From Isoetes taiwanensis (lineage: Eukaryota; Streptophyta; Lycopodiopsida; Isoetales; Isoetaceae): DNA of 64,000 nucleotides. Position 1 is the first letter of the stretch. Every line of letters begins with the position of its first letter. This document shows positions 18,731 to 60,154 of this stretch, piece by piece. The DNA is taken from the NCBI GenBank assembly GCA_021234155.1, contig JAJEKV010000059.1:2560182-2624181 (forward strand), read 5' to 3'. The notes beneath the pieces were generated by a model that was not told the origin of the DNA, did not search any database, and saw only the letters and a list, made by a program, of their open reading frames with translations. A program made the translations under genes and the position numbers.

Positions 18731-20647
18731 TCAGGCTGTCTCAAATTTTACGAAGTACAGTTTTTCTGGCTTTGGATCCCCAAAATTAACTCGTCTTGCT
18801 GACACTTCAATTGTGCTGCGTCCAAAATACATTTTCACTTCTACCTTCCTTGCTTTGCCCAGGTGCAAGCCCTTTGAGATATCCAAGCTGTAGCTACATT
18901 CCTTTACGCAACCTGCATCAGTTGTGTAAACTGGACATTCTTCATCTGATGAATATAAGGCCAAGCGCAGCTGTCTCTGGTCATCATAGATCGGAGAGAA
19001 ATTGTGCTCAACACAAGAATCAATTAATACAGATTGATTTTTCTGGACATACTTTTTAAAAATGTCATCACAATATTTCACTCCCTTTCTACCCTTGAAC
19101 ACATGTTCCATAGAATGACAATCATTGAATTTATGCGCTGCTCTTATACCATAGGTCTTTCTCGACTTCCTGGAGAGCACCAGATTCGATTGAAAACCGA
19201 ATCTGACAGCGCCATGCAAAACAGCAGCTCCAGGATTCACCGGAACAATAATATTTTTAATTTCATGGCCAAACTCCGCTTTTATTCTGCTAACCATGTA
19301 TGCATTTTCAGAAAACCCTCCTACAACCAGCAAGCATTTTATTCTGGGACACAATTTCATTTGTTGCCGTATTAGCTGAATTGTCTTCTCCACCTCGGTG
19401 TCAAATAACTCCTTGAATTTTTGGGTGCTTATCTGCAGCTCTTCGTACTCATCTTCTGGCCTAAAAATGCCCTTTGATTTGTCATATGCTTTCCAAGCAC
19501 TGGCAAGCCTAGATGGAATGTCCCAACCCATTCCCACAGACGAAGAAGAGCCATCAAACGAGCATTTTTTTCCAGTCCACCATTTCTGAACCTTAACAAG
19601 AAACTTTGGATCTTCCCGGGTAAAACTTTTAAAACAGCCTATCTTGTCAGCAAGAAAACGAAAGAAATTATTGTCTACAAATGTACCTCCACCAATTTCG
19701 CCACAGTTCCCAGCTTCATGCACTTGGTAGAGATTATGGTTGGCTTTTTTGTGCACAACTAGGTCAATCGTTCCACCTCCAATATCCACAACCATGAATT
19801 CATCCCCAATTTGTAGAGAGATGTCATGAAGCTGCCTCTGGCAGTAAATGGACGCCGCTTCAGGCTCCAGAACTATTTGCAAACTATGAGGGCTTGCAGA
19901 TGAATCCTTGCAGTATTTGCCTTTTATCATTCCGGCCATTTCACAGCAGATTTGCATTTGCTGTTTGGCAGCTTCATCCCAGATTGCAGGCACGGTTACG
20001 CACCACTGCACATCTTGCTTCTTAAAATGCTTTCCATATTTTTCCTTGAGATGATCAAGGATAAAATCCGACATGCATTTTAGATAGTCGGATATAACCC
20101 TCTGGGCAGAGAGCCCATGAGGCCAATCTGGTTTCCCAACACCAGGAGCGAGCCATAACTTAAATCTGGTAACGAAAAAATGTTCACCCACTGGCTGCAC
20201 CGAATCTTCGAGCCCAGCATGGGCACTGCCTTGCGCTTGAATTTGATACAGTGTATTCGGTGACTTGCGCTTGAATCTTCGGAGCCAGTCACTGACTGCA
20301 CCGAATACAGTGACTGGCTGCACCGAATCTTCGAGCACCTCCAAAAAAGTTTCAGGGCCGGAAAAGTTTTTTTCACCGAATCCTGGCTGCGCTGGTGCAT
20401 GGGCAGTGCCTTGCCCTTGAACCGCCTCCAAAAGTGCAGGCCAGCCCCAAGCTTTTAGGTCCAGCGACCTCCCTGCTCTTGTGTAGAACAAGCTCGTTTG
20501 GGTCTTGCAATACGTTTTTCCTGCGGCATCATCAGAGCAAGGCCAATTCTCCAAAACGTGGACATCGTAAGGATCATTTCTATGCGCGAATGCAAAACCA
20601 GAATAAGTGGTGCCAAAATCAAGCCCCACCACCACTACCGGATCCAT
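18731..20647 (-). CDS. HSPA12-like Hsp70-family ATPase, intronless
   Basis: The 638-residue product starts MDPVVVVGLDFGTTYSGFAF, the actin/Hsp70 phosphate-1 loop. Further family motifs are WCVTVPAIWDEAAKQQM (connect 1 region), VLEPEAASIYC, VVDIGGGTIDLVVH (phosphate 2), LLVVGGFSENAYMVSRI (adenosine loop) and PGAAVLHGAVRFG. This layout, about 640 residues with no canonical Hsp70 peptide-binding domain or EEVD tail, fits the HSPA12 branch, ATPases of poorly known role. The start at 20647 is preferred over an in-frame ATG at 20686, because a TATA box at about 20689-20697 would place transcription start downstream of 20686. Residues about 70-165 contain a local duplication (LEDSVQPV twice, AQGSAHA/GQGTAHA). 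The frame is fully open although it lies in a transposable element. Confidence 0.88.
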   Translation of the reverse strand: MDPVVVVGLDFGTTYSGFAFAHRNDPYDVHVLENWPCSDDAAGKTYCKTQTSLFYTRAGRSLDLKAWGWPALLEAVQGQGTAHAPAQPGFGEKNFSGPETFLEVLEDSVQPVTVFGAVSDWLRRFKRKSPNTLYQIQAQGSAHAGLEDSVQPVGEHFFVTRFKLWLAPGVGKPDWPHGLSAQRVISDYLKCMSDFILDHLKEKYGKHFKKQDVQWCVTVPAIWDEAAKQQMQICCEMAGMIKGKYCKDSSASPHSLQIVLEPEAASIYCQRQLHDISLQIGDEFMVVDIGGGTIDLVVHKKANHNLYQVHEAGNCGEIGGGTFVDNNFFRFLADKIGCFKSFTREDPKFLVKVQKWWTGKKCSFDGSSSSVGMGWDIPSRLASAWKAYDKSKGIFRPEDEYEELQISTQKFKELFDTEVEKTIQLIRQQMKLCPRIKCLLVVGGFSENAYMVSRIKAEFGHEIKNIIVPVNPGAAVLHGAVRFGFQSNLVLSRKSRKTYGIRAAHKFNDCHSMEHVFKGRKGVKYCDDIFKKYVQKNQSVLIDSCVEHNFSPIYDDQRQLRLALYSSDEECPVYTTDAGCVKECSYSLDISKGLHLGKARKVEVKMYFGRSTIEVSARRVNFGDPKPEKLYFVKFETA

Positions 20648-20687
20648 ATTGCAGTCCAAGCATACAGTCCAAGCATACAAGAGCAAG

Positions 20688-20697
20688 CTTTTATATA
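20688..20697 (-). promoter_or_regulatory. TATA box of the HSPA12-like gene
   Basis: TATATAAAAG on the minus strand lies about 40 bp upstream of the preferred ATG at 20647. This implies a very short 5'UTR. Confidence 0.65.
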
Positions 20698-20699
20698 AG

Positions 20700-21950
20700 A
20701 AGTGTTAAAAGGCACGTAGCTTGCTTGCCTTTTCTATATTGGTCTTGCCTTTTCTATAAAAGGCACTTCGCTTATTGTATCTTTCACCTATTTTCCAACA
20801 TGTACCTTTTATGGTAGAACATCAAAATGTCCGGAATATGTCATTTGTACATCACAAAATGAAAAGGGTGACAAGTAAATAAATAAACATGTAAATGCTA
20901 GAATAGCCTCTGGTAGCTTACATGGCTACATGTAAACTATTCACATATGGTCTATATAAGTTCTAGATATATATGGAAAAGCCTTTAATATACATCAGTT
21001 TCTCCCATTGCGTTCGAATAACATATCCAATTATATATCTAAATGAATTTTGCAAATCCTATTCCTATGTTGCACAGTAGATTTCTTGCTCCTATTTGCC
21101 AGATTCCTATAAGTGCATTGATTGCCATGAAATTTATTAAAATGACTTAACAAATAAGGTAAAACAAGGAGAATTAGATTATATAAACTTTGTACTAGAC
21201 ATTTCCCAAATTCTCCCTTTCTTTTTTTTCTTCTTTCATTATTGCTTTGGAATATAGAAGGTAATTCTTAATTTGATAGCTTATAAATAAGTGTGTCAAT
21301 GTTGTTTAAAATGCGTTAAATGAGATGCAAAAATTTTAGTGTGCCAATTGACACCAAATTTTGAAATGTGTGTAGACAGACAGAAAGACAGACAGACAGT
21401 ATAGTTTACGTCATGCCACATTGGCAACATCCATGGGGAAATATAATGAAGGTGTGTGTCAATAGAAAAACTCTATAGAATTTGAATTTACTACATTTGT
21501 TGTGACGCACACACCTTTGTCAACTAAGCTACCACCACTCCTTGAAGACATTTCCTTGCATCTTCTTCATTAGGAGTCTCTAGAATATTCTAGAACCTAA
21601 GCGCATGCACGACATCTGGCGTGAACTCACCCTTTGGAGTGGCGCGATCCTTACTGTTGGTCTAGATACATATAGAAGCATCTCATTCTTGCCGAACCAT
21701 TCCATTGAATGCCAGTCTTGAGTCTGCTAGCTCGAGCCCTTGTATTTGCTCTGTTATGTGTTCCAACATAATCTTTGCATATTTTATCTCTTTTTTTAGC
21801 GTAGATTCATGACAGTTTGAACCAGAATGTCTTGATCATTCTTGCTTGCTATGAGCCTAAGTAATTGTCTATCCATATTTGGTGTTTTGGTGTTTCTTGT
21901 CTCTATGGAGGAGGTTTCATCCTTATTACATCAAGTCTAGCAGATTGTTC
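20700..21950. other. Noncoding DNA upstream of the HSPA12-like gene
   Basis: A short GCCTTTTCTAT repeat lies at 20728-20760 and a GACA microsatellite at about 21374-21400. There are scattered GTGTGTCAA motifs. No gene is supported. Confidence 0.4.
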
Positions 21951-36508: not shown

Positions 36509-36856
36509 TGTTAGCCTAAAACTTGGAATTTTAGCCTAACCTCAAAGGAAATGCAAACCAAGTGGTCAGGACCTCCAGATCACTTAGGGTGATCAATCCT
36601 TAGATATATAAAACAAAAAAACTCGAGATGTAATACTAGTTTTCTCAAAATCACTGAAATCCCTGAAGCAGAAAAAACTGTCAGAGCAAAAATCAGCCTA
36701 GCAATCACACCCTTAGGAATTTTTGAGTTCTGATTTTTGGTATGGTTGATCCACAAACAGAAGAAGCTACTGGTGAAAGTCTGACTCAATTTGAATAAGG
36801 GAAGACCAGGAAAATCAATGTCAAACTCGAGTCAAGAATTGGTCAATGCCAAAACA

Positions 36857-36881
36857 AAGCAAAGTTTCATTAAAGTTGGAA
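36857..36881 (+). repeat. Left TIR of the 11.4-kb transposon
   Basis: 24 of 25 bases match the reverse complement of 48187-48211. The mismatch is at position 6. Confidence 0.95.
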
Positions 36882-37178
36882 ATTTCGTGATTCCATTTTC
36901 GCTCGAAATGAAATTGTTCGCTGTTTTTTCGCACATTCAGCTATCAAATCTGCGCTATTTACTTAAAAATGCACAAGGATTACCCTGAAAACCGCTCTAT
37001 TTCACACGAAATGGGGCGAAAATCGACGGGCAAAACAATCTTGTTGCGCCATTTGAGTAAAAACTGTGGAAACAATTCAATAAAGTCGCTCCATTTGAAC
37101 TGAATAACAAGGACAATACACTGGAAAAAGCAAACAAATAGCGCGCCGGCGCAGTCTGTTGCAATATATTCATATTGC

Positions 37179-37200
37179 AAATGGCGCTGCTGCGCTATTT
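37179..37200. repeat. GCGC-type dyad near the left end
   Basis: AAATGGCGC and GCGCTATTT half-sites face each other across CTGC-like spacer. A second dyad, GCAATAT...ATATTGC, lies immediately left. Confidence 0.75.
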
Positions 37201-37341
37201 GCTTTTACAAGTAAGATATACAAAAGGGGCAAATACATTAAGATCGTATGTGTAATCAGTATTCAAACGATTAATCATTACAGTAAGCATCAATGACACA
37301 AAGGTAAATCTTATATACAAGTATGATATGCAAATCACATT

Positions 37342-40300
37342 TCAATATTCATCACCAAAAGCACTAGCATCTGCTTTAGCAATATCATCCGGATTAATCT
37401 TACTAAGATCAATCTGCGACTCTGTCTCTTCCACCACTTTTTCCCCGGATCCTGTGGCCTCTCCTGTACCAGCCTGTGACCCCTCCACTCCACCACCATG
37501 TGACCCATCTCCTCCTCCAACATGTGATGTCTCTCCTGCAGTCGGCCCAGTCAGTGGCAAAGGTCGACGAGAGGCCATGGCTGCTGGATCAAGCAAGGGA
37601 TTGATGATGTTGTCAATTCTTCCAAGAATCCCTAGCATACACTGGATCTTCTTTCCATCATGCTCATAGGCCACACAACACCTTTTTAACTGCAATGCTG
37701 CCCTAGTAAAAGCACCACCAGAAAAAAAGTCCAGAACAAAGTTACCTGGAGGGCAGAGCTTATCGACAAGGTATGCTGCTGTAGCAGGACCAACCTGATT
37801 CTGAACCAAGTGTTGCCCTTCCATATCCTGCCAACCGTATTTGAACCTTTCCCTCATGAGCTTGTGAACCAGATTCTCTGGCACGACATCAACTGCATCT
37901 TTATGGGTCTTAGGAACTTCAGGCGCTTTCCGGGCATGATCACCATAAAACCTGATATCCAGGTGTTCATCAGGCTGTGCTTGGGCTGAGATTCTTGTGG
38001 CTAGAACCAACGCTCTTGGCTCTTTTATGCCACCACCTGGTGCCCACCCACTTTCCTCTTCGTAAAAGCCTACGTAGACTCTAGATCTGGACTCTAGTCT
38101 CTCCAGGGCATTGCAGAGAAGACTCGTATGTTCTGGCCTAGCAAAACATATTAGCCAGTATGTCTCAACATCTGTCATCTTCGAAGCAGCATCAAAGAAT
38201 TTGGCCAGAGTGGCGGAATCCCAAATCGGATTAATTTGCCTCGCATCCAAACAGATCAGGCTGGCAGGCAACACGACCGGATCCTGTACAATCCCACCAC
38301 TAGAAACGCACTCAACACGAAATCTTTTGAGGTCTTCCTCGGCCTCGGGCTTTAGAAGCTTCTTGATGGCTCTGCCTAATGAGAAGGGCACGTTACCATG
38401 GACACCCTCTTTCAGGATGCCTTCAGTGACCCACGTATTATGCACCACACCCCACGATAGGAGGGTGTTGTCTGAGAATCCCTCGGACACCTTTCTCAAG
38501 TCCTCGAACTTTCTGTACTTCATTCCAAGTTCCTTATGGATGTAGCTGAGAATCTCCTTCTTCATGTAAGCAAGAATCCTTAAGTTCTGTGCTCTCGTCT
38601 TGAAAAAATTATCACCCTTATAGTCCGATGTGACCTTAACATAAACGTCCCCTCTGATGGCTTCCTGGAGGACAGTTCTGCAATCTTCATAATCTAGGCC
38701 TCTCATGCATCTGAGGTAGTTCTCGCTGAAATAGTCCTTATCCTTTGCCCAATTGACTGCTATTTGTTGGCCCTTGTTATCTTTCAGCTCCCCCTTTTTC
38801 CATTTATTCCACATTTGGCGAAAGAGAGCGTAAATATCGTCTGGCATGAAGACGAACCTGTTGACATCCTTGGTATGCTTATTCCTGAGAATCTTGTCAA
38901 CCATTTCAAGGTAATGCTGCAAGGCAAACCAAATATGTTAGAGCTTGAATGCAGCAAAGCAGTTTCAAATGGCGCCGCGGCGCCATTTGGCTGTTACGAG
39001 GGTACATACCTTGTATTCGTCGCTTCTTGATTGGCCTTTTCCAGGAGGTGCTGGCTTGCCGCACTCCTCGTATTGCCTACGCAGGTGGTGTATCTGATCT
39101 GCGTAGGGTTCCTTAAACACTGTCCTGGCTACGATGTCATTGACATCCACGCTGAGCTGAAGATAGTCCAAGTCACTCAATGTTCCAGAGAGAACTCTGC
39201 AATTTCTATAAGTGTAAATCTTTCTGAGTTCTACTCTGGCATCTTCTGTACCCAACTTCTGACACACGAGCTGAGCGGCCTTGAGTGTATGGTTGCCATT
39301 GATAGTGAAGTACCTACAACCACGCAGGTCAGATTCTTGCGACCAGGGTACTAGCTGCTTTGTATCTGGATCAAATGGCACCACATCTGCCGGCGTAAAG
39401 ACTGTATGGGGATCTTGAGCAAATGACTTGCACAGATCCTTAACATGTTCAAGATTTACAACTCGTGCTGTCATGTTAGGAGGTGCCTCTTCCATATCCC
39501 AGATAGATATTCTTCTGACATAATCCACACCTAGAGGAAACATGTGACTGTGCTGCTGTATTTTTCTCAGAGTTTCATCTGCCAAGTCTTCCTCTTCATC
39601 ACGGTCCATCTTCAACTCCGGTGGGACCTCCAGACTTTCCATTTTCTTCTTCTTTCTGTCCCTCATCTCCTTCTTTGTTTCCATCCGCCTTTTATGCGGA
39701 TTGCTTTCAGCCGTCGATATCATCCCTTTACCTGTCATTTTCAGAGAGGATTTATTATCACTTAAGGTTTTCTCAGAATCCTGCTTATCCGAGGACTTGG
39801 GAGGAGTAACGATCCTGATAGGAGGAGACTTGGGAGACTTGGGAGCTGACTTGGGAGGAGACTGTTGTTTCTCTGCCGCATGCTCTGTCTCTTCCCTTGG
39901 TTTGTCTTGGCTTTGCCTGCCTTGCCTATTGTTTGCCTTTTTCTTTGCAATCTCCTGTCGAAGCCAAGTGCTGTCCATTAGAGTAGGCATATTACCTGAG
40001 GTCTTGGCCCTGACAATATGCGACACACTGTTCTTTGATGCGTCCATAGCTGAACGGAGAATGGTAAACCCTTTAAGTAGCTCGCCCGTGCCATTAATAC
40101 CAGCTGCCTCTCTGCTTTCGTATGAAGTCAGCAGCCAGCCTTTTCTTTTGGCAGAGATTTGCTGATCCTTGATGCTAGATTCCATCATCTGTGGATCGTA
40201 AGCCTGCCAGTCCATGCAGCACAGATCAATGGTGCCACGTTCGGGATCCTCCACTGTGCAACCAAGGAGGTCTGATCTTCCCTTCTTTGTCACCTCCCGC

Positions 40301-40503
40301 ATGTTGACAATGATGCCAAGCTGACTGACAACGTCTTGCTCACCACTTCTCGACTTTATCAGGAGGCAAAGTTCTCTCCGCTTGTCCCCCTTTGTTGGGT
40401 CGACCCCTGGCTTCAATGGAATTGCCCTGACAAGTTCCATGCACCATGGCCTTCCAGTCATGACCACTGTCTTCTCCGTCACAACATTTTGGGCTTTGGC
40501 CAT
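37342..40503 (-). CDS. ParB-like / DNA methyltransferase-like fusion protein
   Basis: Two coding exons, 39010-40503 and 37342-38916, join in frame across a 93-nt intron (AAG followed by GTATGT; TTGCCTTGCAG before CAT) to give about 1022 residues. The N-terminal ~190 residues are of unknown fold. A lysine/proline-rich linker follows. Around residues 400-412 is TINGNHTLKAAQL, the GNHR-type motif of ParB/sulfiredoxin-like domains. Near residue 892 is NFVLDFFSGGAFTRAALQLK, resembling the SAM-binding motif of beta-class DNA methyltransferases, in which it lies C-terminally. A clear DPPY or SPPY catalytic motif was not found. The tail is glycine/acid-rich. Start MAKAQ is chosen because a 5'UTR acceptor (TTGTGCAG) lies 5 nt upstream. 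The frame is intact, while the neighbouring transposase is broken. Confidence 0.8.
38917..39009 (-). other. Intron of the ParB/methyltransferase gene, with palindrome
   Basis: Strong donor GTATGT and acceptor TTGCCTTGCAG. The intron contains a perfect 24-bp palindrome at 38966-38989, made of CAAATGGCGCCG and its complement. Confidence 0.85.
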
Positions 40504-40508
40504 CGAAG

Positions 40509-41530
40509 CTGCACAAGAAAACAACAAAACAACATTCAAATCATGAAACCCAAACCCGACCCACTACGCCATTTCCATGGAAATGAAACCCATCGCCATT
40601 TGCATAGAAATATATCGCGCCATTTGCATACAAATGGCTTCCCGTAAATGAAGCCCGGGCCATTTGTATGCAAATGGCGCCGATGGCGCCATTTCTTGAC
40701 TTCTTGGTCGGGCATCCCTCGGCACACGCCAACAATCGTAGTATACACTCCTTATTCTTCGCCATGAGTCGAGGCATTCTCGGCGATTCGATAATAAGGG
40801 CTGTATACTTTCCGATTGTTGGCGAGGGATGCCCGACGGCCGCGAAATTTTCCAAAATAGCGCCAACTGCGCCATTTGCATACAAATGGCGCCGTGGCGC
40901 CATTTACATTACACTACACTACATTACACTACACTATTCTACACTTACTATCCAAACCCGACCCACTACGCCATTTCCATGGAAATGGCGCCACTGCGCC
41001 ATTTGCATAGAAATGGCGCCACTGCGCCATTTGCATACAAATGGCTTCCATGAAATGCCACGGGCGCCATTTGTATATACAAAAGTGATGGCGCCATTTC
41101 TTGACTTGCGAGTCGGGCATCCCTCAGCCTGCCAACAATCCAGAGTATACACTCCTTATTCTCGCTTCGCGAGTCGAGGCATTCTCGACGCGCGATTCGA
41201 TAATAAGGCCTGTATACTTTCTGATTGTTGGCAAGCTGAGGGATGCCCGACTCGCAAGTCAAGAAATGGCGCCACTGCGCCATTTGCATACAAATGGCGC
41301 CGTGGCGCCATTTACATTACACTACACTACATTACACTACACTATTCTACACTTACTATCCAAGAAACTTACTATCCTAGCCACCTGGCTACATGAAACA
41401 GCGCGGTCGCGCTATTTCTTTCAGACGGAACCATAAAAAACTCACTATCCTAGACACATGGCTACATGAAACATCGCGGTCGCGCTATTTCAATACCCTT
41501 GACCTAGAAAACAGCTAAAAACGAACTAAC
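40509..41530 (-). other. 5'UTR intron of the ParB/methyltransferase gene
   Basis: Donor is TTCAG followed by GTTAGT (exon ends at 41531). The acceptor TTGTGCAG ends at 40509, 5 nt before the ATG. It contains two tandem ~400-bp units with hairpins and most of the GCGCCATTT dyads. The model is inferred from splice signals only. Confidence 0.65.
40555..41361. repeat. Tandem pair of ~400-bp units, each with a long hairpin
   Basis: Both units start CCCGACCCACTACGCCATTT (40557 and about 40957) and end in a CATTACACTACACTA run. Within each, an inverted repeat bounded by GGCGCCATTT spans about 40685-40865 and 41090-41273. The arms include GGGCATCCCTC and GTATAC paired with their complements around a loop. 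Clusters of CATTTGCATACAAATG palindromes sit between them. Confidence 0.88.
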
Positions 41531-41531
41531 C

Positions 41532-42245
41532 TGAACCCGATGCCATCGTATATGCGACCGTACAGATACCGTACAGGGACCGTATAAATTCTACTCCACT
41601 TTTTTCCCTCGAGCTCCCGGATCAACAGGCGCTAGTGAGAGAATTACGAAGGCGCTAGAGAGAGAATTATGAAGGCGCTGGGCGCTGGGCGGAAGGCGCA
41701 AGGCGGAAGGCGGAAGGCGGAAGGCGGTGGGCTGAAATTGAAATGAAAGGAATGAAATAAGAGAAAATAAACCCCTCGAAGTTAATGGCGCGACAGGACT
41801 TGGCACGCCGGCCAGCCCGTCCGTCGCTTGAATTTTAAAATCTGAATTTGAATTTCCCGCCCGCCCGCCCGGCCGCCCGCCCGCCCGCCGCTTGAATTTT
41901 AAAATTTGAATTTGAATTTCCCTCCCGTCCGCCAATTGATTCTAAAATTTAAATTGCCGTTCGCCCTTGCGTCGCCAGCCTTCCCCACCACCGTCTTGAA
42001 TTTTAAAATTTGAGCTGTCTTTCTTTGTCCAGCAGGCGCTTCTTTGGGCGCTATATTCAGTTGCAGTCGCTTCTCTTGGTTAGCAGGCGCTTCTTCATTT
42101 CATTGCAGGCGCTACCTTCAGTTGCAGGCGCTTTAGTTCGTTACAGGCGCTTCTTCATTTCTTATCAGGCGCTTCTTCATTTGATTGCAGGCGCTTCCTT
42201 TATTTTGAAGGCGCCTACTTGATTCAAGGCTCTTCCCTTCTTTCA
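41532..42245. promoter_or_regulatory. Divergent promoter region with GC-rich minisatellites
   Basis: This lies between the two divergent genes. It contains GGCGGAA iterations (about 41680-41730), two copies of a block with GAATTTTAAAAT and GCCCGCCCGCCC (about 41826-41930), and about six copies of a CAGGCGCTTCTTCATTT-like unit (about 42030-42200). No convincing TATA box is seen for the transposase gene. Confidence 0.6.
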
Positions 42246-43760
42246 ATGGCAGATTCTCGATCTACAATGATCCCAAGGTTAGTGACTGTTCTGTTTTAGT
42301 TTAACTGTCAGCAATTTCTCCTATAAGTGCAGAATGATGTTTCTACCCTGTAGTAATCTGTAGTAACCTGTAACAATCCAGGAAATAATCTGTAGAGTGT
42401 TGTAATCTGCAGTAATATGTAACAATCTGTAATAATCTTGTAGTCTGTAGTAATCTCCACTAACGTGTAATCTGTAATCCTCAATAATCTGTTGTATCCT
42501 GTAGTTATATGTAGTAATCTGTCACACGCAGCACCTATTAGGTAAAATACTGCACCCCATAAACTTTGGGTTGAAGCATAGTGTCTTTGCTTAATAAGAG
42601 AAATGATCATAATTGAATTGAGAGCGATCTATGATCAATTCACTGATTAAGCACAGCTATTATGCTTCAGCCTAAGTTTATGTGATGTAGTGATTTCCTC
42701 GTCTGCAAGATTAGTATGAATGTGGAGTGTTTTCCAGACCAGAAACCAGGTTCTGTACTGTGTAATCTGCTGTCCTAAATTTTTCCTGTTTAAACACTCT
42801 TAAGAAAGCCAAATGGCGCTGGTGCGCCATTAGATCAAATAGCGCAGCCGCGCCATTTGCCTATTTTGTGAATATTTTGTGGTCATTTCCGCGGGGTTTC
42901 TAACAATGTGTGTGTCATTGTATGCTTACAGGAAAAGGACCTTGCGGGACTTCCTCTGTGGGGACGTGGTTGTTGCTAGGGGGCATGAACTGCACAGATT
43001 GCACCTGCATGGAAAGACCATTGACTACTCTAAGAACGCCGTCGTTGAGGTTACTGAAGCCATAATTCCATCCCATGTGCTTCCCATTCCATGTGCAGGT
43101 GCGGATAACGTTGCTGAAGCCGTAGGCACATTTATCGAATGGCCTAGACTTGACGTGAGAACCTGTCCAGATGCTTCACCTGTATCATCATCTGAGACGG
43201 AAACTCCCAACCTGCCTAGTAGTTCCTCGTCATCACCCAGTTCTCCTTCATCTCAGCCAATGAGCAACACGGAGAACTTGGTGAACTTATGCAGTGATAA
43301 TATTGTTGTTGGCAGAGGTCATTGGCTGAATAGAAGTAGCATCCATGGGAAGGATGTGGATGCACAGAACGTGGTTGTGCAAGTTACCGAGGCTGTGGTG
43401 CCAACTCAGGTGCTTCCGATTGCATGTGCGGGTGCAGATAATATTGCAGAGGCTGTGGGCACATTCATCGAATGGCCTCGAAGCGATATACGTTTTCATG
43501 GCATTGATGCAGCCCATGATGAGACACCAAGACCAGACATGGGGACACCTACCTCATACATCTCATACATAGAATCTGTGGAGGCAGTATCAGATGCAGA
43601 TGAAGAGATTGATCCATCAGTGGATTTAGCTATCGGTTTGCCCGCAGAATACCATCAGATGATGATGAGCCACCACCTTGTTACTCAAGAACAGAACTCT
43701 TGGAAATGCAGTGCCACATTCTCCATTCTTGTACTAGAACTAAATATCACGAAGCTATAA
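42246..43760 (+). CDS. Transposase gene, N-terminal exons with two DUF8039-like domains
   Basis: Exon 1 (42246-42277) encodes MADSRSTMIP and splits a codon. Donor is AAG followed by GTTAGT; acceptor TGTATGCTTACAG ends at 42931. Exon 2 continues RKRTLRDFLCGDVVVARG. Two tandem domains of about 65 residues follow, each with HLHG/SIHG, VxVTEAxxPxxVLPIxCAGA and AEAVGTFIEWPR. They resemble DUF8039, a domain common in plant transposon proteins (name from memory). A Ser/Pro linker separates them. The frame then meets a stop at 43758, and the likely continuation (EMQCHILHSCTRTKYHEAII) lies in another frame, so a frameshift is probable near 43690. Confidence 0.72.
42278..42931 (+). other. Intron 1 of the transposase gene
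   Basis: It holds a degenerate GTAGTAATCT / TGTAATAATC repeat (about 42345-42520) and two dyads built on AAATGGCGC and GCGCCAT(TT), at 42811-42831 and 42837-42858. Confidence 0.75.
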
Positions 43761-46506
43761 TTCTATTCGGTGATCCTCGGGATCTTTGTTGATGATGAAT
43801 TCTTAGGAGACACAAAGGTTGGCCTTTGTGTTGGAAAGGTGCTTCGAGAACTAATGAAAGAGGATCCGAGATGTCATGCTTGTGCGAAAGGCCAAGTGAG
43901 AATGCACTTGTTTGATTGGGAAAATAGCGATGTGATCTTTCTTTGGATGGAAGGACTGTCTCACAACACATCGCAAGCTCGAGAAGCTAAAGAAAATGAG
44001 GATCTGAGCTTGAATCATTTGAGGACAACATTCGGGCTCAATTCAAACCTAAAGAGGAAGTATACTTACACACATAGGATTCCAAGAGAGCCCAAGGGGA
44101 AAAGCAAAGAGGAAAGGCTATGCTCCACAACTTCAATCAATAAGTTCATGAAGTCAAGCTGCTGCAAAAATACTTGCAACAAGAAACTTACCAAGCATCA
44201 AGTGCATTGAATTAAGAAAAGAATTTTTATCCCAACCATACAATGCAAGGGTTACCTTTTTTTGGCGTCTTTGAGTGTGACTTACACAGGAGAAGGAGAG
44301 GACGGGGATAGTGCTCAAGGGGATGGAATTGCAATGCATTTGGGTGGCGCATGGCTTTAGGTATCGGTCGATCAACATTTTACAATTGGAGAAAGAGATA
44401 TGAAGCGGGTGCAAGGGTAGTGAACATGGTAATCTTGGCTCTAAGAAGCCCGGATCCACTACAGCAGCCCTTTGAATGTGTGCTAGACAGATTCATCGAG
44501 GAGAATCTTTGAAAGTATTCCCATCGCCATAGGAGCAAAAAGAGGCAAAGATGATGTAAGAGAAAATGTACATAAGCTTCCTTCCATTCTTAATAAGAAG
44601 CTTATACATAAAGAAGTTGGAAAAATGGTTGAAGAGCTTACGGGAACAAGCTGTAGCCTTGAACTCTTTTTATAGTATATGGAAAAGGGAATTTCGGATG
44701 TTAGCATTGCAAAAAATACAGCCTTCTCTAAATGCAACATCTCAAGCGTGGTAATTAAGCAAAAGCTTCGAAAAAACAAAAGATATAAAGAGAGAGGCGA
44801 AATCTTGCAATTCAACGTCGGGCTCATATGCTAGAAGGAGCGTTCTTGCAGGAAGTCAATATTGGCATTGGAGAGCATTGTCTGGCCGGTCTCGAGAAAA
44901 TCATCTATGTATAATACATGATAAGATGGATCAGGTTAAGACTTTAGTGCCTAGAAGTCATCATCTAGCAAAAATCGTATGGAGAGGTGACCGCTTGAAG
45001 AGCAGTTTGACAGGAGCTCTAACTCATGGGCATGGTGGTCGTGCCTATGGTCATTTCTCACTTGATTTATGGAAAGATGATTCAAACTTCCATATTGGTT
45101 CACTTTCTAGGATATTGCATAACTTGGAATTGGTGCAAGAGGACAAGATAGGTGACTTATGTGGAAGTAAGCCCTGCCAGATTGCGAGATGGATGCAAGC
45201 AGATCAAGGATACCAATCCTTTGAAGAACAAACTTGCTTCTATGGCGTAAGTATTGCCAAATGCTTCAACTACAACGAATCTTTGAGGTGTTCAACCCTC
45301 TCCCGAAATCTCTATTTGCAACTTGATAATGCACGGGGCAAAACAAAAATAGGTATGTCTTTTCATACTTATCTTATTTGACTTGGCTTAAGGTCTTTGA
45401 TGAGATCCAAGTGGGCTTTATGATGGTCGGCCACACCCATGATGATATTGATGCTTTATTTGGAAATTTTTCAACCTTGATGAGTTCATCGGATGCTTTG
45501 ACACTACGAGCTACTTTACTTGTTAAAGCAAGTGCAATGCGAAATCTCCAATTCCATACTTTATTGATGAAGTTCCAAATTGGAAGGCTTTTGTGAAGGG
45601 ATTCATCCACGATAAGGAATAACCTTTGGTTGGGCATCTTGAACCATTGCTCTTCAAATTTAAGATGGCGGGGAGATTGGCCCTGTTATGCAATACAAAA
45701 TCGTCCTACACATAAAGAGTGGCTTCCGGCCAGATTCTCCGGGAGTTAGAATGTGGAAAGAGGATGAACATGGTCAGCCAATGATACCAAGTGGTGTGCC
45801 ACAAAATATTCCTCCTAGACCAACCTTGAAAGATCTTCCAGGGTTGAAGGATAGCATCAACAAATACATCTCCCTATGGAAGGACATATGTAAGAATCAA
45901 GAAAGTAGCTTGTTTGCAAGGCAATACACGGCAAGTGTTGAGTATTGGAGCCAGCTTCTTATCTCTTTGGAGGATGTTGCTCCAGGACGTCCTCAAAATG
46001 ATGCATTTTGGCCACAAACAAGACAAGCTCCTCTAGAACAAACACCATTTGTTCCAGAGGTCGACGTATCTGCCTTGGTCACACGACCTTTACCATCTTA
46101 TTGTGGCCCGTCAGATGGCCGTCCAGTGTTGCCTCTTGAAGAGTTTGATCCTCACGTACATGTGACAAAGGGTATGTTTGTTCTAGTCAGACCTGGAGAT
46201 GATAACACTGCCACTTGGTTAGGATATGCAGAGGAAAATGCTATTCTTGATCCAGAATCTACATATTTTGGCCATATTTTTGTATCGTGGTGGAAGCCTA
46301 CTGGAAGGGACTACAAAGACTGCTTGACTAAGCGTTGGCGGCCTAATCCTTCCGATCCTTCAAGGTACGAAAATTTAGATGCCATTCATTATGCTTGGGA
46401 TGCCAATGGCAAGAGGCCGAAACAAGTCAAATTCGAAATATATTGTAGACATGTGGAAAGACATAGCACATTGTTCATCTTAATACATGAGATCTTGTAC
46501 TTGTAA
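43761..46506 (+). pseudogene. Transposase core (DUF7869-like), frameshifted
   Basis: Fragments in order: GIFVDDEFLGDTKVGLCVGK and CHACAKGQVRMHLFDW; a helix-turn-helix-like GIGRSTFYNWRKRYEAGARV near 44355; GAKRGKDDVRENVHKLPSIL; LNSFYSIWKREFRML. The nuclease-like core has HDKMDQVK (about 44920), LTGALTHGHGGRAYGHFSLD, LYLQLDNARG (D near 45325) and VGFMMVGHTHDDIDALFG (D near 45441). The C-terminal part 45688-46506 is SH3/BAH-like in texture (FVLVRPGDDNTATWLGYAEE). The D/LDN/HTHxDID set matches the RNase H-like DUF7869 family (name from memory). At least five frame changes and an in-frame stop indicate a dead copy, unless some are unrecognised introns. Confidence 0.78.
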
Positions 46507-46649
46507 TACATATCTTTCATCTTAATACATAAGATCTTGTACATTACTATATTTCTGATCATATATAACTGCTTACATCTTTAATATATAAATGCATACA
46601 TGATTCATAGATAAGATGGTCAGAAGTGCTTATATGTTGAACAGGTGAT

Positions 46650-46892
46650 TCAATCATCTTCAGGATCTGTAGTAGTGATCCCTGATATCTCATAGCTCAT
46701 GCGCTCAGGAAGCCATATCAGATGGATCATAACACGAATTGATGCAGGGCAATGAATCTCAGCGCCCAAAGCTTTTTCTCGCAAGTAGGGATCAAGAATA
46801 ATATGCCTATCTAGGCAACCAACAAGATCAGAGTGGCTCATTGAGCACTTGATCGCCTCGATGTGGTGAATAGAAGAAGGCAAGGAAGCCAT
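46650..46892 (-). CDS. Small acidic protein A (80 aa), transposon paralog family
   Basis: It starts MASLPSSIHHIEAIKCSMSH and ends ISGITTTDPEDD. It shares with proteins B and C the pattern I.C-x-(M/L)-(S/N)-x-x-D, a following Cys, L(D/E).(W/Y)L, then VxIHLIWLPE and a Gly followed by an acidic tail. A TATA box (CTATAAAAAC, about 46927-46936 on the plus strand) lies about 40 nt upstream. The longer frame upstream of M33 would include the promoter and is rejected. The function is unknown and no family is recognised. Confidence 0.65.
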   Translation of the reverse strand: MASLPSSIHHIEAIKCSMSHSDLVGCLDRHIILDPYLREKALGAEIHCPASIRVMIHLIWLPERMSYEISGITTTDPEDD

Positions 46893-47264
46893 GGGAGATG
46901 AATGACCTCTAGCCCCGAATGGAGCTGTTTTTATAGTGAAGTAGAAATTATTGATGTGAATTATTGGGGTGGACTGTAGCGCCATCATTGAGCGTATACA
47001 AGTATCATGTACTCAGGTATGATTCTATCATGTACTCAGATTCTATACATCAACTAATATTCACTATGCTTATATTATACATATATCCTTAACAGATACA
47101 CAAATCATAAGTGCTTATATTATTATATCCTTAACAGGTATACATATCATAGATGATTCACTCGTCATTGCTGCTTGACTAATATAGGTGTGATTGAAAA
47201 TAAAAGACAGCTTGCATAGTTCATAGGTACTCATGTCATTATTATATCCTTAGCAGATACAGAT
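46893..47264. other. Spacer between small genes A and B
   Basis: It contains the TATA box and upstream text of gene A, which resembles that of gene B (GATGTGAATTATTGG in both). AT-rich phrases such as ATATCCTTAACAG recur three times. Confidence 0.6.
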
Positions 47265-47501
47265 TCACTCATCATCAACATCAATTTGCGTGATGCCATT
47301 CAGCTCAAAGATCTTCTGATCAGGAAGCCAATAAAGGTGGACCTTAACACGAATGAGCTTCTTGCAAGCACTCGCAGGACCATGTACTTTGGACTGCAGC
47401 CATGGATCAAGTTTGACACCATCTGTGTAGCATTCACACAGATCATTATAGCTAAGGTAGCACGTGAAGGATCGGATGTTCTCTGGACGATCGGAAGCCA
47501 T
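47265..47501 (-). CDS. Small acidic protein B (78 aa), transposon paralog family
   Basis: It starts MASDRPENIRSFTCYLSYND and ends GITQIDVDDE. It aligns with A through the C-x-x-S-x-x-D-L-x-x-C block, LDPWL, IRVKVHLYWLPD and the acidic end. Its promoter is like that of A: CTATAAAAGCAGCTCCAT lies about 40 nt upstream, and CTCATTCATCTCCCATGGC at the start is nearly identical. It is transcribed divergently from C across about 206 bp. Confidence 0.65.
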   Translation of the reverse strand: MASDRPENIRSFTCYLSYNDLCECYTDGVKLDPWLQSKVHGPASACKKLIRVKVHLYWLPDQKIFELNGITQIDVDDE

Positions 47502-47707
47502 GGGAGATGAATGAGCTCTACCACCGGATGGAGCTGCTTTTATAGTGAAGTAAAATGATTGATGTGAATTATTGGTGTACATTGCCATTATACGAGTACA
47601 AGTATGTATATGATCCAATAATTTCTATGTATATACCATCAATAATTTTGGTGGGTATAAATATACATCAAATTGCCGAGTGCAGCAACATTGGCCTCCG
47701 TCTAACT

Positions 47708-47953
47708 ATGGCGCATTCTGGTCCTGAACGTGATTCTATCACTTGCAAGATGAATCATGAGGACTTCAAGCAGTGCCGTGAGCGACATATACCGCTTGAA
47801 GACTGGCTCACCACTGTTGCTCTCAATCCTCGCCATTATCCTGATCCCTTCGATGTTATCATCCATCTTATATGGAATAGAGAGCATCAAATGTTCATGA
47901 TCGAAAGGATCTCTGGAGCGCCTTCTGCTGGTTCTGATGATTCAGAATCGTAA
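47708..47953 (+). CDS. Small acidic protein C (81 aa), transposon paralog family
   Basis: It starts MAHSGPERDSITCKMNHEDF and ends APSAGSDDSES. It shares ITCKMNHEDF...C, RHIPLEDWL and VIIHLIW with A and B. The TATA-like GGTATAAATATA lies about 50 nt upstream of the chosen ATG, so the longer frame from 47555 is rejected. Retention of all three frames in a transposon with a dead transposase suggests late duplication or a selected role. Function is unknown. Confidence 0.65.
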   Translation: MAHSGPERDSITCKMNHEDFKQCRERHIPLEDWLTTVALNPRHYPDPFDVIIHLIWNREHQMFMIERISGAPSAGSDDSES

Positions 47954-48002
47954 GAGTAGAAGAATAATAGTACTTATCATCTTGTTGTAATCTGGTTGTG
48001 TT

Positions 48003-48140
48003 AGTATACAACAGGTATATATAACCTTTTGTAATACACATAACCATACTATATGTATTGAGGTATACTAGTATGCAACAGGTATACATAACCTTTTGTA
48101 ATACACATAACCATACTATAAGTATTGAGGTATACATAAC
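48003..48140. repeat. Two-unit tandem repeat near the right TIR
   Basis: CAACAGGTATA(T/C)ATAACC begins at about 48009 and 48077, a period of 68 bp, with ATACACATAACCATACTATA in both units. Confidence 0.85.
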
Positions 48141-48186
48141 CCTCCAAGGTATACTATATAAAAATTATTCCAACTTGTCTTCAGAA

Positions 48187-48211
48187 TTCCAACTTTAATG
48201 AAACTCTGCTT
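48187..48211 (-). repeat. Right TIR of the 11.4-kb transposon
   Basis: Inverted match to 36857-36881, directly followed by the target duplication AAACA. Confidence 0.95.
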
Positions 48212-50615
48212 AAACAGAGAGTCAAAATCTGCAGATGGATCTTGGTGAGGAATTTTGGGTTGAGATTTGGGTAGACAACTTCAGAATGGACTCTAGATCA
48301 CGTACATAGGGTCTAAGTGGCAAAAAGATGTTATGTTTTTTGTCTGAGAAAGACCACAGTGCTAAATTCTGTCACAGTCTGTAACAGTCATAGGGAACAA
48401 CTAATTTTTATGTTTTCCTTACTTCCCTTAGATGTATATGCTAATACAACCATGTTGGGGATGAAATATAAACATTTAGTTTGGGTGCAATCTAAGAAAA
48501 ATACTCCTATCCTATATTTTGAGTTTTTTGTGTTTGGTTTTGATTCTAACAGCAATATCACATAAAGAAATGATGGCACTAGTTTTCCAGGCAAGGAATA
48601 AGCATTATAGCGAAATGTTACGGGGAATTAAAGAGTTTTCACAAGTAATACCGGGGAATGATGCACGAAAATAAATCTCGAGGGCATCACAAGTTTCTGA
48701 AAATTCACAAATTATCAATAAAGCATGATCAGTCATAGAACTTGAGTCGGAATCAAAGTCATTCGATATTGAGCAGGTCACAGCAGGTCACAGCAGGTCA
48801 CAGTATAACAAATCTTCAATCTTCGAGCAGAATGAGTCGGGGTTTCTTGAGCAAAACAGAGTAATATATCATAAAAATAGAATGCGCCAGGATCACAGAG
48901 GTATTTCTCTGAGGGGTCGTGTCAAAATGCTTTGTTTTCCTGGATTAAAAACTGTCCTTCCCAAAAACCAGCTCGGTTGAGTGATTTCAGGCTTAATTTG
49001 AGCAAATTTCCTTAAATCAAGTGCCACAGGGGGTTCCAGAGGTCTCGGAAAAGGTTCAAGAGATGATTTCGGGAGCAAAAGGGCGGGATTCAATCCAATT
49101 TTGGCACGAATTTGCCAGATTTAGCATTATCCCAGTTTTTAGGGTTTACAGAAGAATTTTGAGGCTCGAAATATCCCACAGGCCTAAATGGGTTTGGGAG
49201 ATAAGGATATATAAAGAATAGTCTGAGTCACCCTTTCGAATTTGCATGCCACGCAGAGGGGTTGTGCCAGCTCGTGTTCTGGAGGCCCTGCCCTGCTGCC
49301 ACGTGGACCAATGGGGGGGGCTAAGGTGGAATTTAAGGCTGATGTGGAAAATAGAGGATAGGGTAGATAGGCTAGAATAGGTTTTTTTTTTTTTTTTTTT
49401 TTTTTTTTATTTTTGGCACGCATTCCAAGAAATGAATTTTGAGAGGCTTCCCAAGGTCTTTTTTGGATTTTTAAAAGGCCAACATAGCTTATTTTTATCA
49501 AGCTTCAAATCTGGAGTGTTTTCAGGTCAAGCTGAAATACTTGAAATTTTGGCCCTTTTGACCATGGTCAATGAATTTTCAAACTTGGAAATGGTGGAAA
49601 AATCATAGGAAAAGAATGGGAAAATGGTGAAAATAGGCTATGGTAGGGTTTATGAGGATAGGATGAAGGTAAAAACCAAGCTTATTTGCTCTTAAGGTTT
49701 TCCAAGATCTTTTAAGAGCAATTCAAAAGTGGAGGTGGGATCAAATAAAATATGTGTAGTAAAATAGCATCAAAGTGAAAGAATTCATGGAAAAGGGGCC
49801 TTTTGGGGGTTTTTTGAGTATGTATGGGAAGATATGGAATGAATGGGATAGAAAAGGATGGAAACCCCTGTAGCACATGATCTTACTTCAGATTACTCAA
49901 AAGCTCAAATCATACCTTATAGTGAAAAATAACTTTGCTCAAGCCTAGAGGTCTTCCAATCTTCTAAAAGGGTCTTCCAATCTTCAAGGCCAAAATGAGA
50001 GCAATTTCACTTCCAAAGTGGCATCCTCAAAAGTGTGACCTCTAAACCATTGATGTAACTCATATCAAGCTCATATAAGTGAATTTGGCAAAAATGCTTT
50101 ATACTCCTTGTAAACTTGCTATATCCTTTGCCTGGTCTTCAAATTAGAAGAAAAATGCTCAAATAGATAAGTTTTAGAAATTTACTTTACCCCAAGGAAA
50201 GACTAGGCTATATTAGGGGATCCCTGATGTCTTCCAAACTTGGTCAAATGTCTTCCAAACTCTAATGGGATCTCAATGGCCTAGAATTTGTCCTTAGAGG
50301 AAGTATGAATGAACAAAAGGTCCAATGCAAAGATGTTGTCCTCATGTTGCCCAAAATGGGCAACATCTCCTCAAAGGAAAGAAGGAGGCTGGTCCCCTCA
50401 GCCTCAAAGGAAAGAATGCTAATTGAATGGTCTTCAGAATGCCAACAAGTGGTGTAAGGTGTAGAATCTCTTTGCAGTGATGGAAAATATGAAGCAGAGT
50501 ATAGGATGATGAAGTAGATAATAGGAGAAGAAGATCAAATGGGGGGTAGGACAACTCAAGACAGGTGAATATGGAGAAGAAGGAATGGATGAACCTACAT
50601 ATGACAATGATAACC

Positions 50616-50870: not shown

Positions 50871-51100
50871 ACAAGTGAGAATGGTGAGCAAATGGACCTG
50901 AAATGGCAACACTCAAATCTGTTAAAGCATAGCAAACCTCTATTTATTTGACTAGGTCATAACCCTTAGAAGTTTCACACACAAACCTTTAGACCATTAT
51001 AAACATCCAAAATTCAAAAAATTTCTGATAACCATCGAGTTAAACCCTAATTCACCTCACTCTGTTCTGTGCTCAAAAAACTCGAACTCCTGCTCTGATC

Positions 51101-51847
51101 ATGGCTCCATTTTCCTACAAAACACCCATCTGGGACAATTTAACAGCTGATCCAAACCATTTAGGAGTTTTTCCCGAGATTGATCCAGCAACAGGTATTC
51201 CAATTCCTTATGGTGTGATCAGGCCAGTGCAGGAAATTCATACAGATGCAGAATGGGATGATATCCTGATCAATGGAGAACCTCTACCAGCTTCAAATCT
51301 GGCTATGGCACATGCATTTTTGAAACAGAGTATGGCAGTGGGAGGTAACAGTTTTGACATAGCATTTCCTGATTTCGAGAAGGAACTATACAGGGGAAAC
51401 TTAAACCATGAGCACCATGCAATGTGCAATTTTCTTGGACAAGAAACTTACAGAGAAAAACTGACAGCTTTGAACAGGTACCGAGACACTAAGGTTCTTT
51501 GGGCCAAGATTTTTGGAAGGGAATTTATACAGATGCTCCATGTTTACTATTTTTTATGTAAACATCACCAAGAGATGACAGATGCCCAATTCAGCAGGTA
51601 TAGGCAGTTGTATTATTCTCACAGGATGCTAACAGACAGCTATGGTTCTCTGATGCTCCTGATGGTAAAAAATAGGCATTTTGAGCTACTCCAAGAGAAC
51701 CTCTGGAAAGAAGAACATTATGTTTTTGGTACTATGGACAGCTTTTTTGCAAGGTATAACAGTCTCTTGGATGCAGCAGATGGATCCCCTTCAAACAAGA
51801 TCCCTACCATCCCTTCAAGAAATACTGATAGTATTGGTTCTCTCTGA
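51101..51847 (+). CDS. Antisense accessory gene of gypsy G2 (248 aa)
   Basis: It is an intact frame starting MAPFSYKTPIWDNLTADPNH, opposite in direction to G2 gag-pol, between integrase and the 3' LTR. A TATA-like CATTATAAACAT lies about 105 nt upstream and AATGAA-type sequence follows the stop. The protein is mostly helical in composition, with no signal peptide or membrane segment. I do not recognise the fold. Tat-type plant gypsy elements such as Grande carry an unrelated-looking antisense gene at the same place, so this is probably an element accessory gene, possibly affecting RNA or host response (inference). Confidence 0.6.
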   Translation: MAPFSYKTPIWDNLTADPNHLGVFPEIDPATGIPIPYGVIRPVQEIHTDAEWDDILINGEPLPASNLAMAHAFLKQSMAVGGNSFDIAFPDFEKELYRGNLNHEHHAMCNFLGQETYREKLTALNRYRDTKVLWAKIFGREFIQMLHVYYFLCKHHQEMTDAQFSRYRQLYYSHRMLTDSYGSLMLLMVKNRHFELLQENLWKEEHYVFGTMDSFFARYNSLLDAADGSPSNKIPTIPSRNTDSIGSL

Positions 51848-57669: not shown

Positions 57670-60154
57670 TGTTAGCCTAAAACCTGGAATTTTAGCCTAA
57701 CCTCAAAGGAAATGCAAACCAAGTGGTCAGGACCTCCAGATCACTTAGGGTGATCAATCCTTAGATATATAAAACAAAAAAACTCGAGATGTTATACTAG
57801 TTTTCTCAAAATCACTGAAATCCCTGAAGCAGAAAAAACTGTCAGAGCAAAAATCAGCCTAGCAATCACACCCTTAGGAATTTTTGAGTTCTGATTTTTG
57901 GTATGGTTGATCCACAAACAGAAGAAGCTACTGGTGAAAGTCTGACTCAATTTGAATAAGGGAAGACCAGGAAAATCAATGTCAAACTCGAGTCAAGAAT
58001 TGGTCAATGCCAAAACAGAGAGTCAAAATCTGCAGATGGAACTTGGTGAGGAATTTTGGGTTGAGATTTGGGTAGACAACTTCAGAATGGACTCTAGATC
58101 ACGTGCATAGGGTCTAAGTGGCAAAAAGATGTTATGTTTTTTGTCTGAGAAAGACCACAGTGCTAAATTCTGTCACAGTCTGTAACAGTCATAGGGAACA
58201 ACTAATTTTTATGTTTTCCTTACTTCCCTTAGATGTATATGCTAATACAACCATGTTGGGGATGAAATATAAACATTTAGTTTGGGTGCAATCTAAGAAA
58301 AATACTCCTATCCTATATTTTGAGTTTTTTGTGTTTGGTTTTGATTCTAACAGCAATATCACATAAAGAAATGATGGCACTAGTTTTCCAGGCAAGGAAT
58401 AAGCATTATAGCAGAAATGTTACAGGAATTAAAGAGTTTCAGCAAGTAATACCCAGGAATGATGCCTGAAAATAAATCTCAGGGCATCACAAGTTTCTGA
58501 AAATTCACAAATTATCAATAAAGCATGATCAGTCATAGAACTTGAGTCGGAATCAAAGTCATTCGATATTGAGCAGGTCACAGCAGGTCACAGCAGGTCA
58601 CAGTATAACAAATCTTCAATCTTCGAGCAGAATGAGTCGGGGTTTCTTGAGCAAAACAGAGTAATATATCATAAAAATAGAATGCGCCAGGATCACAGAG
58701 GTATTTCTCTGAGGGGTCGTGTCAAAATGCTCTGTTTTCCTGGATTAAAAACTGTCCTTCCCAAAAACCAGCTCGGTTGAGTGATTTCAGGCTTCATTTG
58801 AGCAAATTTCCTTAAATCAAGTGCCACAGGGGGTTCCAGAGGTCTCGGAAAAGGTTCAGGAGATGATTTCGGGAGCAAAAGGGCGGGATTCAATCCAATT
58901 TTGGCACGAATTTGCCAGATTTAGCATTATCCCAGTTTTTAGGGTTTACAGAAGAATTTTGAGGCTCGAAATATCCCACAGGCCTAAATGGGTTTGGGAG
59001 ATAAGGATATATAAAGAATAGTCTGAGTCACCCTTTCGAATTTGCGTGCCACGCAGAGGGGTTGTGCCAGCTCGTGTTCTGGAGGCCCTGCCCTGCTGCC
59101 ACGTGGACCAATGGGGGGGGCTGAGGTGGAATTTAAGGCTGATGTGGAAAATAGAGAATAGGGTAGATAGGCTAGAATAGGTTTTTTTTTTTTTTTTAAT
59201 TTTTGGCACGCATTCCAAGAAATGAATTTTGAGAGGCTTCCCAAGGTCTTTTTTGGATTTTTAAAAGGCCAACATAGCTTATTTTTATCAAGCTTCAAAT
59301 CTGGAGTGTTTTCAGGTCAAGCTGAAATACTTGAAATTTTGGCCCTTTTGACCATGGTCAATGAATTTTCAAACTTGGAAATGGTGGAAAAATCATAGGA
59401 AAAGAATGGGAAAATGGTGAAAATAGGCTATGGTAGGGTTTATGAGGATAGGATGAAGGTAAAAACCAAGCTTATTTGCTCTTAAGGTTTTCCAAGATCT
59501 TTTAAGAGCAATTCAAAAGTGGAGGTGGGATCAAATAAAATATGTGTAGTAAAATAGCATCAAAGTGAAAGAATTCATGGAAAAGGGGCCTTTTGGGGGT
59601 TTTTTGAGTATGTATGGGAAGATATGGAATGAATGGGATAGAAAAGGATGGAAACCCCTGTAGCACATGATCTTACTTCAGATTACTCAAAAGCTCAAAT
59701 CATACCTTATAGTGAAAAATAACTTTGCTCAAGCCTAGAGGTCTTCCAATCTTCTAAAAGGGTCTTCCAATTTCAAGGCCAAAATGAGAGCAATTTCACT
59801 TCCAAAGTGGCATCCTCAAAAGTGTGACCTCTAAAACATTGATGTAACTCATATCAAGCTCATATAAGTGAATTTGGCAAAAATGCTTTATACTCCTTGT
59901 AAACTTGCTATATCCTTTGCCTGGTCTTCAAATTAGAAGAAAAATGCTCAAACAGATAAGTTTTAGAAATTTACTTTACCCCAAGGAAAGACTAGGCTAT
60001 ATTAGGGGATCCCTGATATCTTCCAAACTTGGTCAAATGTCTTCCAAACTCTAATGGGATCTCAATGGCCTAGAATTTGTCCTTAGAGGAAGTATGAATG
60101 AACAAAAGGTCCAATGCAAAGATGTTGTCCTCATGTTGCCCAAAATGGGCAACA
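57670..60154 (-). repeat. G2 5' LTR (2485 bp)
   Basis: It is complete, with TG...CA ends on the plus-strand reading. It aligns with the split 3' LTR and lacks the DNA transposon. Features include a CAGGTCACAG triplication near 58575-58605 and a T-run near 59182-59198 (28 T in the other copy). Confidence 0.95.

Follow-up and report, generated by a model that had tools for sequence, protein, structure and literature searches.

A DUF7869 transposon family of Isoetes taiwanensis with a ParB/methyltransferase-like gene and palindromic sites in its non-coding DNA

Do the genes packed into one large transposon of Isoetes taiwanensis belong together, or did they meet by accident in a single copy? The question is raised by a 64,000-nucleotide stretch of contig JAJEKV010000059.1 (assembly GCA_021234155.1, positions 2,560,182 to 2,624,181; hereafter the window), in which the unit at 36857-48211 is a DNA transposon sitting within a long terminal repeat (LTR). 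An initial annotation, made from the sequence without database searches, had joined a DUF7869-like transposase, a ParB/methyltransferase fusion and three small paralogous genes in this unit, and had inferred a coordinated system. We observed a gene set that recurs between defined ends, together with 22-bp palindromes that lie in non-coding DNA and are linked to the ParB/methyltransferase-like gene; these palindromes, which the annotation had missed, are the strongest evidence for a coordinated system. As an explanation of the whole we lean, with modest confidence, towards a DUF7869 transposon family whose palindromes are marked by its own ParB/methyltransferase-like protein.

The unit is sharply bounded. 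Its 25-bp inverted ends match exactly, which did not occur in any of 100 shuffles, and the flanks outside its 5-bp target duplication, once joined, align over 600 bases at 99.5% identity with the empty site in the sister LTR (57718-58317). Inverted ends, duplication and empty site had all been proposed in the initial annotation and were all confirmed at this copy. They are the hallmarks of a DNA (cut-and-paste) transposon, the empty site being one read for the window copy.

A search of the organism's own genome (1.66 Gb) with the left end gave 40 scored matches out of 349 candidates, and 10 kb was fetched from each of the 20 best non-self copies. The ParB/methyltransferase region was present, in whole or in part, in all 20, and in 16 that gene occurred together with the DUF7869 transposase region; two others (L028 and L032) are partial copies, and two (L022 and L023) carry insertions, the transposase not being found within their 10 kb. 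Fifteen of the 20 contained small gene A, and the five copies that were read to the right end had both ends and matches to all three small genes, in varied states of decay. Copies with these ends therefore do not consistently lack the ParB/methyltransferase and small genes, the outcome that the annotation had said would point to a one-off capture. Among the 40 scored left ends, the best other than the window's own is 94% identical to it, although the window insertion is young; the source copy was not seen among them.

The same arrangement extends to a divergent family. C1045, whose exon 2 of the ParB/methyltransferase-like gene is 47% identical in protein to that of the window, keeps the window's order. 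Its left end is related and is followed by the ParB/methyltransferase gene and palindromes, and these by a broken DUF7869 gene and a single small gene (6e-19), after which the fetched stretch ends. The C1031 family (64%) has the left end and the palindromes in common with the window; of its transposase, the stretch read showed the first exon only. That a single transposon copy had captured cargo genes might be argued from the ParB/methyltransferase frame, which among the copies read is unbroken as a whole only in the window. However, the gene set recurs both in other copies and in the C1045 family, and we rejected a one-off capture as barely credible: this is a real, multi-gene transposon family.

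The target duplications of the five other copies were 4 bp long (TTTT, AACT, CAAA, TAGG and AAAA), that of L030 also allowing a 5-bp reading if its end is shifted by one base; the 5-bp duplication of the window copy is unusual. The family consists of cut-and-paste-type DNA transposons of about 10-11 kb, whose inverted ends measure 25 bp and whose target duplications measure 4-5 bp; besides the transposase gene and the divergent ParB/methyltransferase-like gene, they have up to three small genes. Sola transposons have a Sola-type transposase and a 4-bp target duplication. The comparison covered the duplications, which have that length in the five other copies read, and Sola membership is no more than possible; a literature search on it found no paper.

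The element contains 29 copies of the half-site AAATRGCGC and the remaining 52.6 kb of the window none, whole-window shuffles giving 0.6. All 29 exact half-sites are non-coding, being distributed over the left subterminal region, the ParB/methyltransferase intron, the stretch that separates the divergent genes and the DNA immediately ahead of the transposase exon. With one mismatch allowed, the window contains 58 half-sites, 42 of them in the element and two of these in coding sequence. The full site is a 22-bp palindrome, AAATRGCGC-N4-GCGCYATTT. Allowing one mismatch per half, there are 12 such palindromes, all within the element, with a spacer of four bases (ten palindromes) or five (two) whose letters vary; no site falls in the element's right half. 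Spacers also vary by family while the half-sites stay the same, AGCT being found in the intron palindromes of C1031 and often CATG in the C1045 family. In C1031 (L057/L053), thirteen palindromes at element coordinates 6848-7202 are spaced mostly 28 bp apart.

Each of the 20 other copies has between one and 13 palindromes. None of these maps to the transposase part, and in L021, L022, L027, L035 and L036 a single palindrome may fall in an exon, going by a rough coordinate interpolation. The link to the ParB/methyltransferase-like gene is clearest in its intron, which contains palindromes in nine of ten genes (19 in total); 1,000 resamplings gave a null mean of 0.002 introns. None was found in 11,862 bp of exons, comprising both exons of the window gene and exon 2 of six divergent genes. 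When the palindromes were masked, three cross-family pairs of introns gave no significant alignment.

Genome-wide there are 2,899 exact sites, compared with none for a reversed-pattern control. Among 50 sites listed we tested the five clusters of at least four sites, leaving out a three-site group (C33:190894-192996), and fetched stretches of 1.2-1.7 kb beside each cluster, nine in all. All five clusters adjoin an element gene, which is the ParB/methyltransferase gene in four cases (C33, C9, C26 and C28) and the first transposase exon in the fifth (C17). The flank chosen first was the correct one for three of the five, and four of the nine flanks (L062, L065, L066 and L069, the last two by the protein test only) were without an element gene. 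The expectation that exon 2 would come directly after the final palindrome was borne out at C33 and failed at C17 and C28.

The ParB/methyltransferase-like protein, bacterial in appearance, is encoded by one spliced minus-strand gene of 1022 unbroken codons, with its ATG at 40503 and its stop at 37342 (Table 1). A genome search with exon 2 gave at least 86 matches (82 of 4,305 candidates were scored). Those that are stop-free over most of the exon have identities of between 46% and 85%, with residues 2-450 covered in the most divergent one. Across families, the ratio of non-synonymous to synonymous divergence (dN/dS) of exon 2 was 0.07-0.13 at dS values of 1.8-3.0, which are near saturation; it was computable in nine of 44 pairs, the other 35 being saturated. 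Within families it was 0.24-0.61. We take these values to indicate that exon 2 has probably been under long-term purifying selection across families.

Table 1. Positions of the transposon's features in the window
Feature	Position	Strand	Basis
Target site duplication AAACA	36852..36856 (left copy); 48212-48216 (right copy)		Empty site in sister LTR
Left terminal inverted repeat, AAGCARAGTTTCATTAAAGTTGGAA	36857..36881	+	Exact match to right end
Left subterminal palindrome	37179..37200		Further half-sites at 36952, 37046 and 37136
ParB/methyltransferase-like gene, exon 2: methyltransferase-like half, stop included	37342..38916	-	Weak profile and alignment matches
ParB/methyltransferase-like gene, intron, GT-AG	38917..39009	-	Splice reading of the frame
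22-bp intron palindrome	38967..38988		Motif scan
ParB/methyltransferase-like gene, exon 1: N-terminal domain without assignment, basic linker, ParB-like motif NGNH	39010..40503	-	ParB label by motif alone
Non-coding region between the divergent genes, main palindrome cluster (40672-41417; 42811-42858)	40504..42930		Motif scan
Broken DUF7869 transposase gene, duplicated N-terminal domain	42931..46450	+	Profile matches, frameshift alignment
Small gene A, 80 aa	46650..46892	-	Open frame, paralogue comparison
Small gene B, 78 aa	47265..47501	-	Open frame, paralogue comparison
Small gene C, 81 aa	47708..47953	+	Open frame, paralogue comparison
67-bp tandem duplication, right subterminal region	48002..48135		Repeat comparison
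Right terminal inverted repeat, 25 bp	48187..48211	-	Exact inverted match to left end

The identity of this protein is less firm than its gene structure. The methyltransferase assignment rests on the segment forming the S-adenosylmethionine (SAM) pocket, where the match is weak: that segment matched a PHROG methyltransferase profile at 3.4e-4, and a one-sequence search aligned the protein with phage enzymes (1.6e-6). The best profile hit in PDB was RsrI (0.25), and PF01555 was matched with an E of 0.0017 and 18.8 bits, below its cut-off of 26.7; of seven members, one matched this profile at all. A tblastn search of phages had a best E of 4, between the C-terminal SAM-pocket segment and mycobacteriophage methylases, and gave one chance match (E 1) with the ParB half. 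No homologue of residues 300-1000 was found at E 0.001 among 7,990 candidates scored from a large protein database, and viral contigs contained no relative of the methyltransferase half and no match to the inverted repeat. For the other half, ParB proteins are marked by an (I/V)NGNH-type motif, which is conserved in five aligned members and reads NGNY in L047. The fusion proposed in the annotation is accordingly one intact spliced gene, but with a methyltransferase match below cut-off and a ParB label taken from a motif.

The transposase of the window copy is broken. The DUF7869 profile (PF25273) matched it in two pieces at 1.2e-8 and 3e-21, and at 1.2e-32, over the cut-off, when the frame was read through; homologues reach 1.4e-111. 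The acidic residues of the motifs HDKMD, LDN and GHTHxDID are invariant in nine aligned homologues, and the motifs are present in the window despite the broken frame. The structure model of a DUF7869 homologue was too poor to use, with a predicted local distance difference test (pLDDT) score of 47. Of the duplicated DUF8039-like domains that the annotation had described, the N-terminal duplication is there (repeat copies near 43068-43145 and 43401-43478), but the label had no hit in the window itself; PF26133, which we take to be DUF8039, is precomputed for four of ten transposase homologues. The annotation was right about the transposase family and its motifs, and the gene set of its coordinated system is kept in the family, but this copy has no working transposase.

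How the copy came to be where it is can be dated from the LTR pair, which it entered later than that pair arose. Over 1,833 aligned columns, which run as far as the cut stretch does, the two LTRs show 19 mismatches and four gap openings, a divergence of about 0.5% per copy. The transposase frame has 14 frameshifts and two stops in 2380 bp (44052-46431), and 23 frame-breaking indels in 2,690 bp are private to the window when compared with six other copies. L030 has two such private indels and differs from the window at 5.3% of sites in a direct alignment of the transposase stretch. Other copies are damaged too, with from two to 26 transposase frameshifts in the 16 that were well covered. Because the LTR divergence explains only a small part of the damage, most of it predates the insertion, and the transposase therefore came from another copy. 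This dating supports movement of the window copy in trans: it arrived with a broken transposase and an intact ParB/methyltransferase gene, whose 3,066-bp frame acquired no breaks over the same time. Values of dN/dS from the codons of the frameshift aligner were not used, as they conflict with the 5.3% substitutions of the direct alignment.

The marking of the palindromes by the element's own protein would work as follows. The ParB/methyltransferase-like protein would recognise the 22-bp palindrome, binding as a dimer, and when bound it would mark the control region of the element, so that expression is kept or host silencing is shielded off; it might also regulate its own gene. The altered catalytic motifs hint that the methyltransferase half may read or hold DNA rather than carry out the usual methylation. 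More tentatively, the marking may resemble that of parS: the fusion of a ParB-like and an altered methyltransferase half would load on the palindromes of its own copies, including those in its own intron, and protect or activate copies in trans, such that even copies with a dead transposase would still be selected to keep the gene. We regard this fuller version as possible, though doubtful.

Several findings weigh against marking by the ParB/methyltransferase-like protein. Its frame is broken in all 19 readable copies of the 20 fetched, and intact whole genes are rare. N6/N4 methyltransferases carry a catalytic motif of the form (D/N/S)PP(Y/F/W), and none of the 12 genes aligned over exon 2 has this DPPY-type motif; at the place where we would expect it, itself a putative placement, nine genes read LDARQ, L039 LHARQ, L042 LDTRG and L043 LDTKG. 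Motif I is altered in all 12 genes, to D(F/Y)(F/Y)SxG(A/S)(F/L), where x is G, A, C or D. The ParB domain had no profile support in Pfam, NCBIfam and PHROGs scans or in a PDB profile search, and the structure model of the ParB fragment, with a pLDDT of 34, was unusable. As for the sites, 16 of the 58 one-mismatch half-sites in the window lie outside the element, two of the 42 inside it are in coding sequence, and the tenth intron (L046) has a shortened palindrome and no full one.

The palindromes might instead be bound by the transposase or by a host factor, as subterminal sites or an enhancer-like array, with the ParB/methyltransferase-like protein acting elsewhere. Spm/En-type elements use repeated subterminal motifs, and it fits that some sites lie close to the left end or ahead of the transposase exon and that cluster C17 adjoins that exon; yet the right half of the window element is without sites, and subterminal transposase sites need not recur, as these do, in nine of ten ParB/methyltransferase introns. 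We judge this unlikely. Action at the RNA level, as intron or leader hairpins that steer splicing or yield small RNAs, appears quite improbable: each palindrome could fold as an RNA hairpin, and their location in an intron and other non-coding stretches suits such a role, but the thirteen palindromes of C1031, in that family's control region, resemble an array for protein binding. To passive micro-repeats that hitch-hike and spread within elements, with no function for them, we give little credence. The tandem arrays, spread in part by local duplication, are what such repeats would leave; their absence from the exons, their retention in introns that otherwise show no significant alignment, and two half-sites held at a near-constant spacing of four bases around variable spacer letters are not.

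In bacteria, ParB acts at parS, and the likeness lies in clustered palindromic sites and a ParB-like motif in the protein. The sequence of parS differs from that of the palindrome described here. The sites also differ in length, 22 bp here against 16 bp in the part of the parS literature consulted (PMC8494293), and the protein falls short of a ParB profile match. With the N6/N4 methyltransferases (PF01555, RsrI) and phage enzymes the comparison is similar: VLDFFSxGAF aligns with VLDFFAGSG of RsrI, but the matches are below cut-offs, the glycine spacing of motif I is changed, and the DPPY-type motif was not found in the 12 genes.

A functional parallel is offered by VANC proteins, which, according to the parts consulted, bind to short motifs that recur in non-coding DNA of the VANDAL elements they come from (PMC5735166, PMC10398659). 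The two systems have in common an element-encoded factor and short non-coding motifs that are often tandem and differ between related families. In the present case the motif is palindromic and also occurs in the factor's own intron, and the proteins are not known to be related. Our best reading of the ParB/methyltransferase-like protein is as a self-targeting factor comparable to VANC, and it is because of this analogy that we propose an anti-silencing role.

For the gene set, the annotation knew of no described plant transposon with this combination, and no paper on DUF7869 or DUF8039 was among the matches listed by the literature searches. Genes for ParB with a DNA methyltransferase had nevertheless been published for transposons of brown, green and red algae. 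In the sections consulted, Sola1-1_Ec32 of Ectocarpus has a 1104-aa gene for a ParB-like protein with an N4C/N6A methyltransferase opposite the transposase; green and red algal cases are cited, such proteins are proposed to bind and modify their own transposon, and pseudogenised transposases and mobilisation in trans are described (PMC12477816). The algal transposons and the present family are alike in all three respects: accessory gene, pseudogenised transposases and movement in trans. The DUF7869 transposase and the non-canonical methyltransferase motifs set the family apart, by description and not by sequence, as do the small genes and palindromic arrays, neither of which is mentioned in that paper's section on such genes (PMC12477816). 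The accessory gene itself is not new; what is new here is the palindromic sites and their link to it.

Three paralogous frames of 78-81 aa bear out the small-gene family of the annotation. Around their starts, A and B share 84 bp that include a TATAAAA box and are 92% identical (46884-46967 and 47493-47575), whereas their coding sequences are 56% identical (dN 0.62, dS 0.82); the contrast suggests either fast protein change or conversion of the leader. With the aligned small proteins as query, three candidates were returned, none at E 0.1. The 67-bp tandem duplication (48002-48135) falls in the half of the element without palindromes. Elsewhere in the window, a 657-aa open frame on the minus strand (18731-20704) has a weak Hsp70 match (PF00012, 1e-9, residues 211-500) and might encode an HSPA12-like protein. 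A 267-aa open frame on the plus strand between the two LTRs (51044-51847), opposite in strand to the gag-pol-like frame, has no Pfam match.

These findings suggest a transposon that may identify and mark copies of itself. Target sites of transposon-encoded ParB/methyltransferase proteins were described in none of the titles and abstract openings among the matches listed, and the section on possible self-marking factors in the algal study names no target (PMC12477816); the present family supplies a concrete candidate site. The density and specificity of that site, and its retention in the gene's intron among divergent families, make the self-marking idea directly testable, and the window adds a dated case of transposition by a copy whose transposase was dead and whose accessory gene was intact.

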